Part shown: positions 5,109 through 60,281 of the stretch, in pieces
How positions within the stretch are numbered: the first letter of the stretch is position 1
How the letters are laid out: each line of letters begins with the position of its first letter
Source: Sporolactobacillus sp. THM19-2
Lineage (GTDB): Bacteria > Bacillota > Bacilli > Bacillales > Sporolactobacillaceae
Direction: 5' to 3'
Assembly: GCF_004153195.1 (NCBI RefSeq)
Contig: NZ_SEMC01000006.1
Coordinates: 1-64,000 of the forward strand
DNA length: 64,000 nucleotides
Position numbers and translations under genes: made by a program
Notes under the pieces: generated by a model
The model's database searches: none
Told to the model about the DNA's origin: nothing
The model's input: the letters and a program-made list of their open reading frames with translations, nothing else

Positions 5109-5131
5109 TAAGACAATTTCATATGTTAAGT

Positions 5132-5272
5132 AATCTTTCGGGGCAGGGTGAAATTCCCAACCGGCGGTGAGCACGTTTTCGTGCAAGCCCGCGACCCGGT
5201 TGCTCTTTTTGGCAAACGGTGGATTCAGTGAGAAGCTGAAGCCGACAGTACAGTCTGGATGGGAGAAAGATT
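5132..5272 (+). promoter_or_regulatory. FMN riboswitch (RFN element)
   Basis: The conserved RFN blocks are present in order: ATCTTTCGGGGCAGGGTGAA, CCCAACCGGCGGTGA, AGCCCGCGACCCG, GGTGGATTCAGTG, GAAGCTGAAGCCGACAGT and GATGGGAGAAAGA. FMN binding normally favours a downstream terminator and shuts off riboflavin synthesis. The terminator hairpin lies at 5388-5420, with ribD 36 bp beyond, so control is by transcription attenuation. Confidence 0.96.
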
Positions 5273-5387
5273 GCGGCAAGTTGTGTTTCCCGCGTGGGAG
5301 ACCCGTTTTTCGCTTTCCTTATGAGTCATGCGTGAAAACGGTTTATTTAAGTGAGCACATATTTGTCGTATTCAATTTTTATACACT

Positions 5388-5456: not shown

Positions 5457-6545
5457 ATGAAAGATGCGGAGTTTATGAGCCTGGCGATTCATCTGGCGAA
5501 AACGACAGTCGGTCAGACCTGGCCAAATCCGGCGGTCGGGGTGGTTGTTGTCCGTGACGGGAGGGTTGTCGGCATGGGCGCGCATTTAAAAGCCGGCGAG
5601 GCGCACGCGGAGGTGAACGCGCTGAAGATGGCGGGAGCCAGAGCTGAGGGCAGTACGCTCTATGTCACGCTGGAGCCGTGTTCCCACTTTGGGAAAACCC
5701 CTCCCTGCGCGGATCTGATTATTAAAAGGCGGGTCAGGCGCGTCGTGATCGCTTCGGTCGATCCGAATCCGCTGGTTTCCGGACGGGGAATTCAGCGCAT
5801 GAAAGATGCCGGTATTACCGTGGAGTCCGGGCTGATGGAAAAAGAAGCAGAGTCGCTCAATCCGGGCTTCTTCCACTACATGATGCATGGGACGCCATTT
5901 GTGACGCTGAAAGCTGCCTGCAGCCTGGACGGCAAGACGGCGACGGCGGCGGGAGAGAGCCAGTGGATCACAGGTGAGGCGTCCCGGCGCGACGGGCAAC
6001 ACCTGCGCAGCCGGCATGATGCGATTCTCGTGGGTATCGGCACTGTGCTTGCTGATGATCCGCGTCTGACCGTCCGAACGGAAAGCGTCGCGCGTCAGCC
6101 GGTCCGCGTTGTTCTGGATACAAAGCTGCGTATTCCGGAACAGGCACAGCTTCTGAATGACCGGGCCGCGCAGACCTGGGTCATTACCGGACGGACGATT
6201 GATGAGCAAAAAGCGGCGCGTATCCGCAATGACCGGGTGAGTGTCTTTCGCTTGCCGGAAAGAGATCTGCGCATCCAGGATGTTTTAACTTTCCTTGGGG
6301 AAAAAGGGATCATGTCGCTGCTCGTTGAAGGAGGGGCGGCGATTCACGGCAGTTTCCTGAAGGCCGGCGCGTTTGACCGGCTGATTGTGTATATGGCGCC
6401 GAAGCTGATTGGCGGGCAGCGGGCGGCACCCGTGATCGGCGGCGACGGTATTGAGCACCTGCGGGATGCCGCCGCGCTGTCCATAGACGATGTTGAAAAA
6501 ATTGACGGTGATCTGAAAATTACGGCGACCCGAAGGAGGGACTAA
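5457..6545 (+). CDS. ribD: Bifunctional riboflavin deaminase/reductase RibD
   Basis: RibD carries out two steps of riboflavin synthesis: deamination of the pyrimidine made from GTP, then NADPH-dependent reduction of the ribosyl side chain. The 362-residue protein has the zinc deaminase site HAEVNAL (His50, Glu52) with PCSHFGKTPPC (Cys75, Cys84), followed by the reductase domain from about residue 145 (FVTLKAACSLDGKTAT; LLVEGGAAIHGSF near 295). Length is normal. It is the first gene of ribD-ribE-ribBA-ribH, under the FMN riboswitch. A diverged piece of the same gene lies at 1701-1853. Confidence 0.96.
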   Translation: MKDAEFMSLAIHLAKTTVGQTWPNPAVGVVVVRDGRVVGMGAHLKAGEAHAEVNALKMAGARAEGSTLYVTLEPCSHFGKTPPCADLIIKRRVRRVVIASVDPNPLVSGRGIQRMKDAGITVESGLMEKEAESLNPGFFHYMMHGTPFVTLKAACSLDGKTATAAGESQWITGEASRRDGQHLRSRHDAILVGIGTVLADDPRLTVRTESVARQPVRVVLDTKLRIPEQAQLLNDRAAQTWVITGRTIDEQKAARIRNDRVSVFRLPERDLRIQDVLTFLGEKGIMSLLVEGGAAIHGSFLKAGAFDRLIVYMAPKLIGGQRAAPVIGGDGIEHLRDAAALSIDDVEKIDGDLKITATRRRD

Positions 6546-10993: not shown

Positions 10994-11020
10994 GGCTACA
11001 ATAACAGAATCATTCTTTAT

Positions 11021-11172
11021 TCGCTTAATCTGTAAGGAGCGGGGGAACCAACTCTGTGATGTCAGCATCACTTGGGGTGAATCCTTTCATGCAGGACGGG
11101 CTACTCTCATGGCCCGAATCCGACAGCTAACCCCGTAAGCGTTAATGAGAGGGTGTGAACGTATGATCGGCA
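11021..11172 (+). promoter_or_regulatory. c-di-AMP riboswitch (ydaO/yuaA type)
   Basis: Conserved ydaO blocks are present: TCGCTTAATCTGTAAGGAGC, GGGGGAACCA, TTGGGGTGAATC, GCAGGACGGGCTACTCTC, GGCCCGAATCCGACAGCTAA, CCCCGTAAGCGTT and AATGAGAGG. Binding of c-di-AMP should promote the terminator at 11179-11210 and repress potassium uptake. Confidence 0.95.
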
Positions 11173-24108: not shown

Positions 24109-24170
24109 TCCACATAAAAAGCTGAGTACGCCAAAAAATGCTGATTCCCGGATCTTTTTTATTGGGGGAT

Positions 24171-24390
24171 GGTCAGGTTAAGCCCCGGTCTGAAAAATTG
24201 ACGGAAAAATTCCGCTTAACTTAGTAAAGAGGATAACAGCACGTCTGCAATAGACGGAGGAATTCCGCCTGTTGACTCGAAAAATATGAAAATGGGGAAT
24301 CTTGCTTTGCCTAATCGGAAAAATTCCGCTTATGATACCCCGAAACGAGCTCCATTCTGCATTTAAGCGGAATATCTCCGCTTATTAAGC
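24171..24390 (+). repeat. Dispersed intergenic repeat, copy A
   Basis: A ~190-220-bp unit made of four short imperfect palindromes of the form CGGAAAAATTCCGCTTA separated by constant unique stretches (for example GTTGACTCGAAAAATATG). Copy C at 59931-60120 aligns over its whole length in the opposite orientation, and copy B at 48073-48202 is a shortened version. It has no coding capacity and fills the gap between DUF2252 and the methylase gene. Confidence 0.85.
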
Positions 24391-24682
24391 AAGACGATGA
24401 CATTTTCAGATATTAGTTGCTGGCGTGACCCATTCTGATGGAACCCATGGATATCATCAAAACGTCGATTCAGGTTATGGAGGTAAAAACTTCATGGCTT
24501 TAAAATAAGCAGGAAATTTCCGGAGAACGCTAGGAAACAAATAGGCTGATACTCTTTCAGGCACAAGTGGATAGTTGCTCACGGCTGCCCGTGCAGAATG
24601 CATCTCTTCCTACGTGGTCGGATGCTGCTCGCCTTTTTTTTGTCTTTACTGCGACACATACATGAATAGTTTTATAAAACTA

Positions 24683-24711
24683 TTGAAAAATTTACGAAAA
24701 AGAGGTATAAC
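24683..24711 (+). promoter_or_regulatory. Promoter of the M-S methylase gene
   Basis: TTGAAA (24683-24688), 17-bp spacer, TATAAC (24706-24711), 38 bp upstream of the chosen start codon. Confidence 0.6.
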
Positions 24712-24748
24712 GATAATAGTTAATAAAAACTATCGAGAAGGCGATCAA

Positions 24749-26473
24749 ATGAACCTCAGTGAGCAACTGGCGCATGGTGCAGAAACACTGGATGACCGGA
24801 TGTCCAGTGAAAAACGTCTGTTTCTGGTGACGCTGTATCTCGGAAGCCGGGCGATTGATGCGCAACAGGACAGCGGGGAGGAACAGGCTCATGCCATCCG
24901 GAAAACGTTAAAAAAACTTGTACCGGATCTCGCCGGTCAGCTGGAATCTTCATTTCAGAGCATCGATTTCAGAAAAATTACCGCCAGCCAGCTGAAAGAC
25001 GGATTCTATAAACAGGCGATCCGGCTCCGGAGCCTGTCCGTGACGCCGCTGGAAATCAATCGGCTGATTGCCGGGATGCTTCATGAAGAGCAGGTGAAAA
25101 CCATTTACGACGGAGCCTGCGGATTTGGCGGCTCGTTCCTCGACCTCGCAGTGGATCATCCGGATACCGCATATTACGGTCAGGATGTCAGTCCGGAAGC
25201 CGTCGCACTGACCGACATGTTCCTCACGCTCAGTGGGAACACACATCAGGTGGCACGCGGCGACGCGATCCTCGACCCGGCATTTTTTGAAGGGACGGCC
25301 CTGAAAAAGTTCGACGCGGTCGTCATCGATCCGCCGATCGGCATGAAGACGGCGGCTGATCCGCAAACGGCGTCGCATGGGCGCTTTTCTCCGCTTGATC
25401 GGAAAATGGGCAAGCTGGACTTCTATTTCCTGCTCAATGCGGTGGAACGAAGTAAAGGAAAGACAATTATCGTCTCCGGCAGCGGGCCGCTGATCCGTTC
25501 CGTCGCCTCTGAACAGAAAGTCCGGCGCTATCTGCTTGCTCAGCTGTCCGCCGTCATCCGTCTTCCGGCCGGACTTTATCCAGCGTCGGCGACAGCGACC
25601 AATTTGCTGCTGTTTGACCACCATAAGGAAAATGATCACGTGCTGATGATCGATGCCGGTTCCTTCAGCGAAGGACGCCTGCGTGATAAGAAAATCTCTG
25701 AAGATGGCATTCAGAAGATCCTGTCCGTCCTGAAGACGCCGAAAAACGAAGATGGCTTCAGCCGGCTCGTACCGGATCAGGAGATTGTTGCCCATGACGA
25801 CTCCTGGGACGTGGACAAGTATCTGATGCGCGCCACCTTTCTGTCGAAACACCTGGGTGAAATACGGTGGAACCAGGACACACTCCGCGCGCTGAAGACG
25901 GTTCCCCTGCAGGACCTGTGCACACTGGTGAAAGGGTATAACCTGTCGGCCAACAACCCGGAGACAGGAGAGGGGGCAGCCGTACTTCGGCTTAATGACA
26001 TCAGCGATGACGGGTGCATTGATTTTCAGTCGATCGCCCGGTTCGCTGTCAACAGGGACCTCAGCCGCCACCGGTTGCGGCGCGGCGATATCATCCTTGT
26101 CGCTAAGGGCACCCGGCAGAAGATCGCCGTCTTTGACAGCAGCGAAACTGTCTATCTCTCGATCAATCTGATGGCGCTGCGACCGAAGCAGATCAATCCC
26201 TATTTTTTTAAAGCCTATCTGGAAAGTCCGCTCGGGGAGTATTACCTGTCGCGCAGCCAGTCCGGCACAATCCTGCCCGTACTGACTGCGAAAAGTCTGA
26301 GCCGGCTGCCGGTACCGGAAGAGCTGATTACCAAAGCGGATCAGATTGGTGAATCCTGCAGGCGGCTCCGTTCATCCTATTATAAAAAGCTAACTGAGCT
26401 TCAGAAAAAATATGTATCCGAGCGGAATCAGCTGGATGACGCGATGAATCAGGGTATTTGGGACAAAGCGTGA
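24749..26473 (+). CDS. Atypical type I-like DNA methylase with fused specificity domain
   Basis: This 574-residue protein joins a HsdM-like N6-adenine methylase (about 1-380) to a HsdS-type target-recognition domain (about 390-560, ending LPVLTAKSLSRLPVPEELI and a coiled-coil spacer). SAM motif I is DGACGFGGSFLD with Asp121. Motif IV reads DPPIG (Asp194), whereas active m6A methylases have N/D-PP-F/Y; the missing aromatic residue makes base methylation doubtful. No hsdR is next to it. ATG 24749 has GAGAAGG 7 nt upstream. It could be a solitary methylase, a DNA-binding sensor, or a partner of the large defence operon 1 kb downstream. Its GC is host-like, unlike that operon. Confidence 0.8.
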   Translation: MNLSEQLAHGAETLDDRMSSEKRLFLVTLYLGSRAIDAQQDSGEEQAHAIRKTLKKLVPDLAGQLESSFQSIDFRKITASQLKDGFYKQAIRLRSLSVTPLEINRLIAGMLHEEQVKTIYDGACGFGGSFLDLAVDHPDTAYYGQDVSPEAVALTDMFLTLSGNTHQVARGDAILDPAFFEGTALKKFDAVVIDPPIGMKTAADPQTASHGRFSPLDRKMGKLDFYFLLNAVERSKGKTIIVSGSGPLIRSVASEQKVRRYLLAQLSAVIRLPAGLYPASATATNLLLFDHHKENDHVLMIDAGSFSEGRLRDKKISEDGIQKILSVLKTPKNEDGFSRLVPDQEIVAHDDSWDVDKYLMRATFLSKHLGEIRWNQDTLRALKTVPLQDLCTLVKGYNLSANNPETGEGAAVLRLNDISDDGCIDFQSIARFAVNRDLSRHRLRRGDIILVAKGTRQKIAVFDSSETVYLSINLMALRPKQINPYFFKAYLESPLGEYYLSRSQSGTILPVLTAKSLSRLPVPEELITKADQIGESCRRLRSSYYKKLTELQKKYVSERNQLDDAMNQGIWDKA

Positions 26474-26509
26474 CGAAGCGATCTATCACCATAACGAGGG
26501 AGTGATTGA

Positions 26510-26785
26510 ATGTATTGTGTTGAGATTATGGTAAGCGGTAAAGATTGCTATATTGGCGAAAATCCGAGTGGCGTTCCCGTCGCACTCATTGAAGAAAGCG
26601 ATCATATCGTCTTTTTTAAGGATTGGTCACATGATTTTGCTTTGAAAATGAATGATCAACAAATAAGCGAATTAAAGGAAGCAAAAGATTGTGTGGTCAT
26701 CGACTTTGATCAAGAACAGGTGAAGTGTCTCTATGCATTCCCGGACGTCGCAGTTGCATTTGTCAAAAAGGATGTGGCGAGTTAA
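26510..26785 (+). CDS. Small hypothetical protein after the M-S methylase
   Basis: This is a 91-residue acidic protein (MYCVEIMVSGKDCYIGE at the start) with four Cys and no recognised domain. GAGGGAG lies 8 nt before the ATG, and it starts 36 bp after the methylase stop, so co-transcription is likely. The reading frame continues open for 50 codons past the TAA with protein-like content, which may be decay of a once longer gene. Composition is AT-richer than the methylase. Confidence 0.6.
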   Translation: MYCVEIMVSGKDCYIGENPSGVPVALIEESDHIVFFKDWSHDFALKMNDQQISELKEAKDCVVIDFDQEQVKCLYAFPDVAVAFVKKDVAS

Positions 26786-27235
26786 AAAGGGAAAACAAAT
26801 CAAGAAAAACATTGGAAAAATGTCACGCCGACAAGCTGGGCTTGCGCTCTGTGTATTCGAGCAAAATTAGATGAGGAGAAACACAGAAAAGAAATTATTG
26901 GTCATGAACCTGATATTACGAAAAAGCGATGATCAAAACCACAGAAAAGCTTTATTCTCTTAAGCGCAAACTGAGTAAGGATCAGTGTGTTGAGGATCTT
27001 GACAAGTTGCTTGAAGAGAAGAAAATATATGAAACTCGTCAGAGTAATACCTGATTAATGGGGAATGTGCCTGTTACTGGCAGGGGGGAAATGATTTAGA
27101 GAGAAATAAGATTCTTCAAGAAAACGAAATGAAGCAACTTCAGCTTCAGAAAGCTTACAAATCTAAAAAGACAGATTTACGTAACCTGGTAACTGTTTAA
27201 ATTTTATTCACAGAAAATACTCACACCATGATATT
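26786..27235 (+). pseudogene. Decayed gene fragments before the defence operon
   Basis: Several short coding-like pieces follow each other in different frames: WKNVTPTSWACALCIRAKLD ending at TGA 26930-26932, an overlapping 41-codon ORF from ATG 26929 (MIKTTEKLYSLKRKLSKDQC), and NGECACYWQGGNDLERNKIL ending NLVTV at a TAA near 27200. None has a full gene layout. I do not recognise the parent family. This looks like one or two small genes broken by frameshifts. Confidence 0.4.
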
Positions 27236-27389
27236 GAAGTCAGCGAAAATAATGGGTGCATACATTTTTATCACCCAAGAACAATCTTTGAAGGAGGGTT
27301 TTTCCCCAAGACAAGATAAAGAGGTATTCATTAAGTTCTTTATGGGCGCTTTTCATCCTTCAAGTCTAACCAATAACTGATAAATAATC

Positions 27390-27398
27390 TGATATAAT
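27390..27398 (+). promoter_or_regulatory. Extended -10 promoter of the defence operon
   Basis: TGATATAAT is a TGn extended -10 with a perfect TATAAT, about 115 bp before the first start codon. No good -35 is present, as is usual for this promoter type. Confidence 0.55.
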
Positions 27399-27515
27399 CA
27401 AATGAAAGGTATATATTAAAGAGTGTTCCAGTGTGCTGTCATCAAGTCTATTAAAAAGTAAAAAACATGATATTGCCTGGAAATGAATTTTTATGAATCA
27501 TCAGGGGGATTCGTT

Positions 27516-30500
27516 TTGGCTCGTTTAGAAGATTTAACTGCAGATACCGTCGTAAAAGGCATCGTTGGTGATGATCCGGTAACTATTGTAGCGGCATCAT
27601 GGTATGGTAATGCCGTTCTGGAAGTCACCTATAAAACAGATAAAGGCCAGCTTGGCAGCGAATTGCTCTATCGTGATAGCGAACCTGACCTGAAGATCAT
27701 TAAAGACAGTCTCCCATGGAGTTTTGACGCGGACGGTGGTTTGATGCGCCTGGTCTCGGAAGCGTATCGCATTCATCTTGCCCATTTATTTGACCCCTAT
27801 TTGGCTGTCCATACATCCGAGATCGAACCCTTACCACATCAGATCTCTGCTGTTTATAAAGAGATGCTGCCAAGAATGCCACTGCGATATGTACTGGCTG
27901 ATGATCCTGGTTCCGGAAAAACAATTATGACAGGTCTGTTGTTAAAGGAACTGATTATTCGCGGCGATGTGAAAAGGTGCTTGATTGTCACACCTGGCAA
28001 TCTGTCAGAACAATGGCAGGACGAACTTTATCGTAAATTCCATCTTCGGTTTAAGATACTTAATAATGATAATATAGACTCAGCTGTAACAGGGAATGTC
28101 TTTGAAGAAATGCCCTTCTGCATTGCCCGTCTTGATAAATTGGCGCGAAATGATGACCTTCAGAGAAAACTGAAAGCGATTGACTGGGACATTATTGTCT
28201 GCGATGAAGCACATAAGATGTCAGCCACTGTATTTGGTGGCGAAGTGAAATATACGAAGCGTTTCAGGCTCGGTCAGCTACTGTCGACGATTACACGCCA
28301 TTTTCTATTACTTACAGCGACACCGCATAATGGAAAAGAAGAAGATTTTCAACTGTTCATGTCACTGATCGATCCCGATCGCTTTGAAGGAAAGTTACGC
28401 TCCAGGCAGCAATCAATTGACGTGTCCGATGTCATGCGACGTTTGGTGAAAGAGGAGCTGCTCAAATTTGACGGGACGCCACTTTTTCCGGAACGACTTG
28501 CTTATACAGTTAATTATGATTTATCTCCTAATGAAGCACAACTTTATGAAGCAGTCACTGAATATGTTCAGGAAGAGTTTAATCGCGCAGATAAGCTGAA
28601 CACTGAACGAAGGAATACAGTCGGTTTCGCGTTAACTATTCTACAACGCAGGCTTGCATCTTCACCAGAAGCCATTTATCAATCACTAAGGCGTAGGCGG
28701 GAACGCTTAGAGCAACGGGTAACTGAGGAAAAGATGCAGCGTCATGTTTCTCAAGATTCGCTTGCTTTAAAAAATGATGATGATTTTTATGACCTTGATG
28801 AGATGCCTGGTGAAGAGTTTGAATCGGTTGAAGATCGTATCGCGGATCAAGCATCCGCGTCATCAACTATCAAAGAAATGGAAGCAGAGATCGAAACATT
28901 GAAACACCTGGAACAAGCAGCTACGGAAGTGAGAGCAACCGGTGATGATCGGAAGTGGGAAGAACTTTCGAAACTTCTTCAAGAAGATAAGAATATGTTC
29001 AGTCCTGATGGTCGGAGGGAAAAACTGATTATTTTTACGGAACATAAGGATACACTTTATTATTTGACAAATAAAATACGTTCTTTACTAGGCAATGACC
29101 ATGCCGTTGTAACCATTCATGGTGGCATGCAGCGGAGAGATCGCCATCATGTTGAAGAACTGTTTAAACAGGATAAAGAAGTTCGTATCCTTATTGCGAC
29201 AGATGCTGCCGGTGAAGGGATCAACCTGCAACGAGCGCATCTGATGATCAATTATGATCTTCCATGGAACCCGAATCGACTGGAACAGCGCTTCGGACGC
29301 ATCCATCGTATCGGACAGACAGAGGTGTGCCATTTCTGGAATCTTGTTTCTAATAAAACGCGTGAAGGCCAGGTTTATCAAAAATTATTGGCCAAATTGG
29401 ATAACGAACGAAAAGCACTAGGCGGCAAAGTATTCGATATCTTGGGGAAAGTGAAGTTTGAAAATAAATCTTTACGTCAGCTGCTTATTGAAGCAGTTCG
29501 TTATGGTAATCGTCCCGAGGTTAAAGCCAGGTTGGATCAGGTGGTTGATCATTCGCTTGATCAGAAGGCATTGAAAAATCTGCTTAAAGAGCGGGCATTG
29601 ACGGAAGATACGATGGATATCCATCAGGTATCGGAAATTCGTGAAGATATGGAACGTGTGGAAGCCCATAAATTACAACCGCATTTTATCGAAGCGTTCT
29701 TTAAAGAAGCATTCACAAAATTAGGGGGCTCAATCAAACCCAGAGAACAGGGGAGATATGAAATCACCTCTGTTCCATACACCATCCGACACTTCAATGA
29801 AAGTACGCTTGATGAACCAATTCTTAGAAAGTATGAACGTGTCTGCTTTGATAAAACATCCTGCCATCTTCATGGAAAGGCAACGGCTGTTCTTCTTTGC
29901 CCTGGGCAACCTTTGTTGGACGCTGCAATTGGTTTGATTCTGGAACGTTACGGGGATGTACTGAAACGTGGTACGATCTATGTAGATGAAAATGATGAAA
30001 ATATCGATCCAAGGCTGCTTTTCTACATAGAAGATGCGATTCAGGACGGAAAAATTCTTGATAATGGAACACGCAGGGTTATCTCCAAACATGTTCATTT
30101 TGTTGAATTGAAAGAAAACGGTACGTCGATGAACGCTGGTTATGCACCATATCTTGATTATAGGCCGGCAAATGAAGAAGAAAGAAAACGTATCAATGGG
30201 TATATCAAAAACCAGTCATGGCTGATGCACAATGTGGAAGAACGTGCAAAACGCTATGCGATCGAACAGATTATTCCTGATCATTTTCAAACTGTGAAAA
30301 GTCACAAAGTAAAATTAATCGAGAAAACAATGAAAGCGGTGAAGGAACGGTTAACAGCTGAGATTCAATATTGGGACTATCAGGCGGCAGATTTGAAAGA
30401 AAAAGAAGCAACGGGCAAAACCAATGCAAAGCTTAATTCAAAACTGGCGACTCGACGTGCCGAGGAACTGGAAGGCAGGATGAGAAAAAGACTGGCTGAA

Positions 30501-31022
30501 CTGGAGCAGACGAAACATCTATCACCCATGCCGCCAAAAGTCGTTGGGGGTTCGCTTGTTGTTCCTCTGGGATTACTGACGAAGCTATTCGGAAAACCCT
30601 CGACTGCAGGATTGTTTGGAAAAGACCGGCGGACAATCGAGCTGGCCGGCATGCGAGCTGTTATGATGATTGAACGGGAGCTTGGCTTTGTGCCTGAGGA
30701 TGTCAGTATGAAAAAATGTGGCTATGATATTGAATCGATAATTCCCGAAGCTCAAAGGCACGGCGGGAGTTGTCTCCGCTTTATTGAAGTAAAAGGGCGA
30801 ACAAGCGATGCCACAACAGTGACACTCAGTAAGAATGAAATCCTGACTGCTCTGAATAAACCAGATGAATTCATTTTGGCACTCGTGAAAGTCGATGGAG
30901 TGAAAACACACACCATTTATTTGAAAAAACCATTTATAAAGGCCCCGGACTTTAGCGCTACCAGTGTAAACTACGATATAATGAAATTAATTGATCACGC
31001 AAAAGTTCTCCTGGAGAAATGA
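27516..31022 (+). CDS. SNF2/HepA-type helicase with C-terminal DUF3883-like domain
   Basis: This is a 1168-residue superfamily 2 ATPase, probably a DNA translocase. Motif I is LADDPGSGKT (Lys135), motif II DEAH (230-233), motif III LTATPHNG, and motif VI QRFGRIHRIGQ (~591-601). A charged insertion (about 390-500) separates the two RecA lobes. The C-terminus (~1069-1165) has CGYDIES and RFIEVKGRT with NEI, matching the DUF3883/NERD-like nuclease fold. TTG 27516 is preferred: AGGGGG lies 7 nt upstream and the family start LEDL follows; ATG 27483 lacks a site. It heads an operon with DUF1156, DUF499 and DUF262 genes, so it likely moves along or remodels invading DNA for that complex. Confidence 0.85.
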   Translation: MARLEDLTADTVVKGIVGDDPVTIVAASWYGNAVLEVTYKTDKGQLGSELLYRDSEPDLKIIKDSLPWSFDADGGLMRLVSEAYRIHLAHLFDPYLAVHTSEIEPLPHQISAVYKEMLPRMPLRYVLADDPGSGKTIMTGLLLKELIIRGDVKRCLIVTPGNLSEQWQDELYRKFHLRFKILNNDNIDSAVTGNVFEEMPFCIARLDKLARNDDLQRKLKAIDWDIIVCDEAHKMSATVFGGEVKYTKRFRLGQLLSTITRHFLLLTATPHNGKEEDFQLFMSLIDPDRFEGKLRSRQQSIDVSDVMRRLVKEELLKFDGTPLFPERLAYTVNYDLSPNEAQLYEAVTEYVQEEFNRADKLNTERRNTVGFALTILQRRLASSPEAIYQSLRRRRERLEQRVTEEKMQRHVSQDSLALKNDDDFYDLDEMPGEEFESVEDRIADQASASSTIKEMEAEIETLKHLEQAATEVRATGDDRKWEELSKLLQEDKNMFSPDGRREKLIIFTEHKDTLYYLTNKIRSLLGNDHAVVTIHGGMQRRDRHHVEELFKQDKEVRILIATDAAGEGINLQRAHLMINYDLPWNPNRLEQRFGRIHRIGQTEVCHFWNLVSNKTREGQVYQKLLAKLDNERKALGGKVFDILGKVKFENKSLRQLLIEAVRYGNRPEVKARLDQVVDHSLDQKALKNLLKERALTEDTMDIHQVSEIREDMERVEAHKLQPHFIEAFFKEAFTKLGGSIKPREQGRYEITSVPYTIRHFNESTLDEPILRKYERVCFDKTSCHLHGKATAVLLCPGQPLLDAAIGLILERYGDVLKRGTIYVDENDENIDPRLLFYIEDAIQDGKILDNGTRRVISKHVHFVELKENGTSMNAGYAPYLDYRPANEEERKRINGYIKNQSWLMHNVEERAKRYAIEQIIPDHFQTVKSHKVKLIEKTMKAVKERLTAEIQYWDYQAADLKEKEATGKTNAKLNSKLATRRAEELEGRMRKRLAELEQTKHLSPMPPKVVGGSLVVPLGLLTKLFGKPSTAGLFGKDRRTIELAGMRAVMMIERELGFVPEDVSMKKCGYDIESIIPEAQRHGGSCLRFIEVKGRTSDATTVTLSKNEILTALNKPDEFILALVKVDGVKTHTIYLKKPFIKAPDFSATSVNYDIMKLIDHAKVLLEK

Positions 31023-48072: not shown

Positions 48073-48202
48073 CGGGAGATCAGGTTAAGTGCCTGATCTG
48101 ATCAATAGACGGAAAAATTTCTCTTAATCGGAAAATTTCCCCTTATGGTTCCCCGGAACGCGCTCCATTCTCCATGGTAACCGGAAAATTCCCGCTTATT
48201 GC
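48073..48202 (+). repeat. Dispersed intergenic repeat, copy B (shortened)
   Basis: It aligns with both ends of copy A (24171-24390), from GATCAGGTTAAG and GACGGAAAAATT to CGGAAAATTCCCGCTTATT, but lacks ~110 bp of the middle. Orientation is the same as copy A. Confidence 0.75.
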
Positions 48203-59726: not shown

Positions 59727-59930
59727 TTGGCCACCGCATTTCAGGTGCTGGAATACAGCAAAGGACAGCATCAGGGGGAAAGCGTACACAGTCGCAACGG
59801 TACCCTATCCACGCCAGCTCACGCCTCGCGTCGGTCGGCTGCAGCTGCACTCTCCCCGCTCGCGTAACAGCCGTCTCGCCCATTCAGCTGTTCCAGCACC
59901 GCCAAATAACCAGACGATAATCGTTTTCCT

Positions 59931-60120
59931 TAATAAGCGGAAATTTTCGGCTTAAATGCAGAACAGAACGGGTTTCAGAGTATCATAAGCGGAAGTTTTC
60001 CGATTATGCCATGAAACTCCCCCCCATTTTCATATTTTTTGAGTCAATAGGCGGAATATCTCTGTTTATTGAAGCTTCCTTTTATCCTCATTTACTAATT
60101 AAGCGGAATATCTCCGGCTA
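59931..60120 (-). repeat. Dispersed intergenic repeat, copy C (inverted)
   Basis: The reverse complement aligns end to end with copy A, including the constant spacers (TTAGTAAA-GAGGATAA, TTGACTC-AAAAATATGAAAATGGGG, CTGCATTTAAG) and all four GCGGAA/TTCCGC palindromes. It fills most of the gap between the GNAT gene and the next small gene. Confidence 0.85.
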
Positions 60121-60281
60121 ATTTACAAAGCCTTTTAGATCCTGGAAGAAAGATGAAATATTGCCAGTTAAACGCTTGATTTATTCAAGTGATAGAAAAA
60201 GTTGATTACTCACGCAGTCAACTCATGATTCAATCTGAGGACGGATACTACGCAGGTAGATCCGATCTTCTTATTCCATCT

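Follow-up and report, generated by a model that had tools for sequence, protein, structure and literature searches.

The window analysed here, a stretch of 64,000 nucleotides of Sporolactobacillus sp. THM19-2 (positions 1 to 64,000 of contig NZ_SEMC01000006.1), harbours three copies of a repeat at 24.2, 48.1 and 59.9 kb, each of them lying between open frames (Table 1). Four imperfect palindromes are present in the region 24171-24390. The copy at 59.9 kb is full and inverted, with units starting at 59934, 59986, 60048 and 60100; that at 48.1 kb is deleted, its units start at 48106, 48125 and 48178, and roughly 95 bp have been lost through the fusion of units 1 and 3. In the unit scan of the window, for which units were taken as 21-mers and up to 4 mismatches were allowed, the repeat units showed 0-2 mismatches each, or 3 in the case of 48106 when read on the minus strand. 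The remaining matches had exactly 4 mismatches each, and the shuffled-window control gave 9.75 unit matches at up to 4 mismatches. The first-pass annotation had described the three copies as true homologues of a family built of four palindromes, intergenic and with no gene inside. Copy comparison and BLAST bear out the homology, and the number of palindromes was recovered by the unit scan. The intergenic position proved correct for the window copies as well as for 30 loci examined in the same genome, where the copies lie between genes; frames of at least 70 codons overlap two of these loci (L015 and L019) and were taken as spurious. No usable empty counterpart of the window site was found.

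Table 1. Positions of the repeat copies and their units in the window.
Feature	Position	Strand	Basis
Four-unit array, sub1 core, reported copy	24198..24386	+	similarity among copies; profile-model match 24195-24386; unit scan
Palindromic unit 1	24198..24218	+	unit scan
Palindromic unit 2	24251..24271	+	unit scan
Palindromic unit 3	24312..24332	+	unit scan
Palindromic unit 4	24364..24384	+	unit scan
Left flank, common to many sub1 copies of Sporolactobacillus and Neobacillus; TTGGGGGAT..CAGGTTAAGC..CTGA	24160..24197	+	alignments; left limit approximate
Deleted copy with a fused unit 1/3 followed by unit 4	48106..48198	+	copy comparison and unit scan
Full inverted copy	59929..60124	-	copy comparison and unit scan

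Beside the repeat, at 24575-31022, lie a type I methyltransferase-like frame and a 1179-aa SNF2 helicase, the latter matching the PADLOC model HmaA with 1624 bits; the two probably constitute a defence system adjoining the repeat. The window also contains FMN and c-di-AMP riboswitches (5130-5274 and 11012-11156, above the Rfam cut-offs) and a 144-bp direct repeat, 88% identical (1701-1844 and 5704-5847), which is, as far as seen, unrelated to the palindrome array.

Architecture and distribution of the array

The core of about 190 bp consists of four imperfect 23-bp palindromes spaced at ∼51, 61 and 51-52 bp. The half-site ATARRCGGA is mirrored within each of them, the unit consensus being AATARRCGGA..TCCGYYTATT. 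When distances between neighbouring units were counted with none imposed (loci from L117 on), 51 bp was met 276 times, 61 bp 159 times, 52 bp 88 times, 112 bp 19 times and 62 bp 16 times, and any other distance in 8 cases or fewer. With a helical repeat of about 10.2 bp, 51 and 61 bp amount to whole turns; with one of 10.5 bp they are slightly too short. Unit number shifts in whole steps of ∼51-52 bp: sub2 copies (see below) with 3 and 5 units were seen, and orthologous places in two genomes of the window's species carry 4 vs 5 and 4 vs 7 units.

A stricter cut-off, under which the spacing could vary by 2 bp at most, yielded 114 arrays in the named-genome loci and 111 in the Sporolactobacillus loci. 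They form two subfamilies of equal spacing, sub1 (83 named-genome and 111 Sporolactobacillus arrays), to which the window copy belongs, and sub2 (31 named-genome arrays). One representative sub1-sub2 pair reached an alignment score of 140 or 147, hardly above the 127 obtained when sub1 was set against its reverse complement (372 when set against itself), hence the spacers of the two are unrelated. The length of ∼190 bp proposed earlier holds for the shared core, many copies being embedded in longer, lineage-specific repeats. A plain 190-bp element with terminal repeats of its own was considered and rejected: the palindromes make any end look inverted, and the flanks are lineage-specific. In the flanks of L057-L116, other hairpin repeats (ACCGGGC..GCCCGGTTTTTCT; CATCCTGCGGAAGT) adjoin the arrays in mosaic order.

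The genome-wide count suggested by the first-pass annotation revealed further copies. BLAST found 35 places in the window's own genome, equal to 34 loci (two places are pieces of the 48.1-kb copy), and together with at least one copy missed by BLAST (L347) the total is about 35. With no more than one mismatch, the unit pattern gave 70 forward matches in a genome of the same species and 127 matches in one Neobacillus genome, against 0 in the reversed control of each. Among other genomes of the genus, 5 of 13 had the repeat by BLAST and 8 were without a match, as were all 24 genomes sampled more widely from the family and the order. The pattern scan of named genomes returned at least 117 stretches; the matches listed belong to Sporolactobacillus, Neobacillus, Cytobacillus, Mesobacillus, Bacillus and other Bacillales, and the two plainly non-Bacillales ones among them (L138, L167) are single motifs without the array. 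A profile of 35 arrays, searched for presence only and with at most 6 candidates scored per genome, matched 53 of 397 Bacillales genomes and 22 of 136 genera; the other 344 genomes had no match. The array is an old, Bacillales-wide, multi-copy and real family.

No match to one sub1 and one sub2 query was obtained in plasmid and phage collections; a terminal-repeat query gave one weak 38-letter match among the plasmids, and one pattern had 0 matches in viral contigs. No autonomous element carrying an array was seen. Within 2.5 kb on either side of 106 arrays no telling recurrent gene was found, the largest group, present at 8 loci, being, to judge by its sequence, presumably an ABC-type ATPase and too general to be informative. 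Arrays rarely sit between divergent genes: where both neighbours were present (76 cases), the pair was convergent in 31, tandem in 38 and divergent in 7. In the same-species genome G043, whose record is 3.2 Mb long and in which the origin was not located, a post hoc count of the listed positions placed 21 of 36 copies within the first megabase.

Proposed mobility of the two subfamilies

Sub2, found in Neobacillus and others, is about 275 bp long, has no gene inside and is flanked by a 27-bp terminal inverted repeat. At up to 3 mismatches, this repeat had 55 matches in 5 genomes, against 0 in the reversed control, and no match in one further genome scanned. All 30 fetched loci contain at least 3 units, the first of them about 43 bp from the tip. 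The mate end was present in 22 of the 30, absent from 7, and in one case there was no room for it. Target duplications of 8 bp, equal at 7-8 of 8 letters, accompany 13 of these 22 both-ended elements (two rows of which are one element) and 0 of 176 shifted controls. By its anatomy sub2 is thus a MITE: its 27-bp terminal inverted repeats, which are of the IS1595-family type, are accompanied by target duplications of 8 bp.

The window's own genome harbours an intact IS1595-family element of 1116 bp with a perfect 8-bp duplication (TTTAGAAT twice) and a gene of 328 aa (PF12762, 56.4 bits, cut-off 27). Its two ends each share 20 of 27 letters with the sub2 repeat; when the repeat was shuffled, this agreement arose at the left end with a frequency of 1e-5 and never at both ends in 200,000 trials. 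Genes with PF12762 were detected in 3 of the 8 genomes searched, and two further IS1595 loci, in sub2-bearing genomes, have one sub2-like end each (19/27 and 22/27). The gene search gave no match in three sub2-bearing genomes (G038, G039 and G040), where the movement of sub2 would therefore be past or depend on a missed gene. Of the points raised by the first-pass annotation, target duplications are present in sub2, a matching transposase is likely for it, and its mobilisation in trans as a MITE-like element is well supported. This does not extend to sub1, and so to the window copy: IS1595-type ends are absent there, and when ends and duplications were sought blindly around sub1 arrays, nothing exceeded the control.

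With up to 8 mismatches allowed and both sides considered, the sub2 end was matched at 1 of the 104 sub1 arrays from Bacillaceae and at none of the 108 from Sporolactobacillus. In the window's own genome, one sub1 type lies inside a longer repeat whose inverted ends, GCTCATTGCGATG / GCTTTTTGCGATGTTGATTTTTT, are imperfect; the inner ATGTTGATTTTT resembles an IS1595 end, and at the copy L038 the sequence AATCCTGAATGA flanks the longer unit on both ends. In G003 the gene flanks of a copy are 932 bp apart vs 231 bp in a relative (about 700 bp longer), the flanks being too diverged to read a duplication; L283, which the same-species genome has and the window's own genome lacks, sits in a rearranged region. 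In Neobacillus niacini (L302-L318), many sub1 copies stand behind one identical terminator-like hairpin, GACGTATG..CATACGTC, with a T-rich tail, and some have yet another end, GGGTTCCGTTTTCGAGTGC.

Nature of the array and alternative explanations

The palindromes could be regarded as RNA hairpins, the repeat then providing a terminator-like element, a stabiliser of 3'-UTRs or a structured RNA, and an RNA role had been put forward by the first-pass annotation. The minus strand of the window copy does fold better than 200 of 200 shuffles (z -3.34, 0/200 as good), the plus strand has a z of -2.01 (matched by 5/200), copies lie mostly behind genes, as the orientation counts given above indicate, and there is one terminator-like site on the minus strand, at chance level. 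Repeated palindromes, however, fold well anyway. Pairing was counted in a hand-picked alignment of 35 arrays (A2), also used for the model, which was obtained from one of 51 sequences (A1) that held misplaced arrays by leaving out 16 rows (L174, L088, L055, L040, L177, L126, L328, L089, L092, L195:6259, L221, L249, L129, L205, L198 and L245). In A2, 81.3% of cells were paired vs 80.9% when shuffled, 59 of 500 shuffles being as high; the covariation score was reached by 31 of 500 shuffles, and the fifth position of each arm was unpaired in 20-29 of the 35 arrays. Across 268 arrays, pairing at the fourth and fifth positions, which vary freely, is mostly no better than after shuffling; a few sub2 positions reach a pairing z of 2 to 3, and several nearly invariant positions display a pairing excess of the kind that degenerate units can cause. 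Rfam contains no relevant match to the repeat, the best being a snoRNA far below the cut-off. With folding in its favour and no clear covariation, an RNA function seems rather improbable. Meanwhile, each half fits ATARRCGGA alone, which would suit a dimeric DNA-binding protein.

Slightly less probable still is that the array represents a nucleoid, segregation or regulator-binding site of the host, maintained because it benefits the cell, even though symmetric sites, a fixed spacing, presence throughout the order and the post hoc count for the first megabase of G043 would agree with it. The distribution is patchy, as the genomes without a match in both the genus and the order demonstrate. Moreover, in 26 orthologous copies from two genomes of the species, substitutions amounted to 63/2365 in the units and 75/2474 in the spacers, as compared with 142/6198 in the near and 224/14508 in the far flanks. 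The rate in the units is about equal to that of the surroundings, hence the units of resident copies are not visibly protected, and the nucleoid site of the first-pass annotation finds no support. A geometry fixed order-wide combined with neutral decay within the species would rather be the pattern of an element selected for its own spread. As regards the mode of that spread, sub1 might be moved not by a DDE transposase but by a terminator-seeking or single-strand enzyme, in the manner of group IIC intron targeting or of an IS200/IS605-type derivative with hairpin ends. In three other Sporolactobacillus species, 18 of 27 analysable sub1 copies (out of 55 loci) start directly behind intrinsic terminators, whose hairpins differ, while shuffled and upstream controls gave 0 each. 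TTAC or TAAC often precedes the conserved left end, and no terminal inverted repeat was recognised for sub1. The position behind terminators may nevertheless be a survival bias, and L038, with the same sequence at both ends of a longer unit that has imperfect inverted ends, speaks against such an enzyme, which we consider unlikely.

The array is accordingly read as a set of putative protein-binding sites serving the spread of an element, in preference to an RNA or a regulatory site of the host. On balance, the repeat appears to be a non-autonomous mobile element, the conserved inner part of which is an array of four putative DNA-binding sites. Sub2 would be mobilised in trans by an IS1595-type transposase. 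A dimeric protein would bind the four sites, which lie approximately in helical phase, and the resulting nucleoprotein array may help the element to move or to be maintained. Sub1 would be moved by another enzyme or represent a mosaic with exchanged ends, and resident copies would decay neutrally. More tentatively, and with a good deal of doubt, the fixed-spacing four-site array may be portable, distributed across Bacillales on two or more types of mobile element whose ends are unrelated, as a shared cis-acting docking cassette used by many gene-less elements and putatively bound by a host or transposon protein.

Relation to known repeats and significance

No description of a four-site repeat family was found in the literature, subscription papers being mostly outside the search. 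The B. subtilis 190-bp repeat is similar in length, dispersed and intergenic. The repeats bcr1-bcr18 of the Bacillus cereus group, of which bcr1-bcr3 were called MITE-like, are likewise multi-copy intergenic repeats of Bacillales; they were compared by description alone, and the available part of that source makes no mention of a four-site array (PMC3446304). REPs are described as single palindromes of 20-40 bp, the majority of which end on one side in a GTAG or CGTC tag (PMC3733652). REP and BIME sequences are dispersed intergenic palindromes, as here, but the present units of 23 bp form a fixed array without the GTAG/CGTC tag, and the REP-type reading of the first-pass annotation is not supported. 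Sub2 resembles the MITEs related to the IS1595 family (ISXO2-like) in being short and gene-less, with terminal inverted repeats and 8-bp duplications; it differs from them in holding the conserved fixed-spacing four-site array, which also occurs without such ends in sub1.

A MITE is usually seen as a pair of transposon ends enclosing filler. In the present family conservation lies in the interior, which is common to elements with different ends and whose geometry is kept while the spacers turn over. The array leads one to expect a protein bound to all four sites in register, and it might reveal how elements that lack genes enlist a factor besides the transposase. The intergenic repeats of many Bacillales genomes thereby gain a name and an anatomy.
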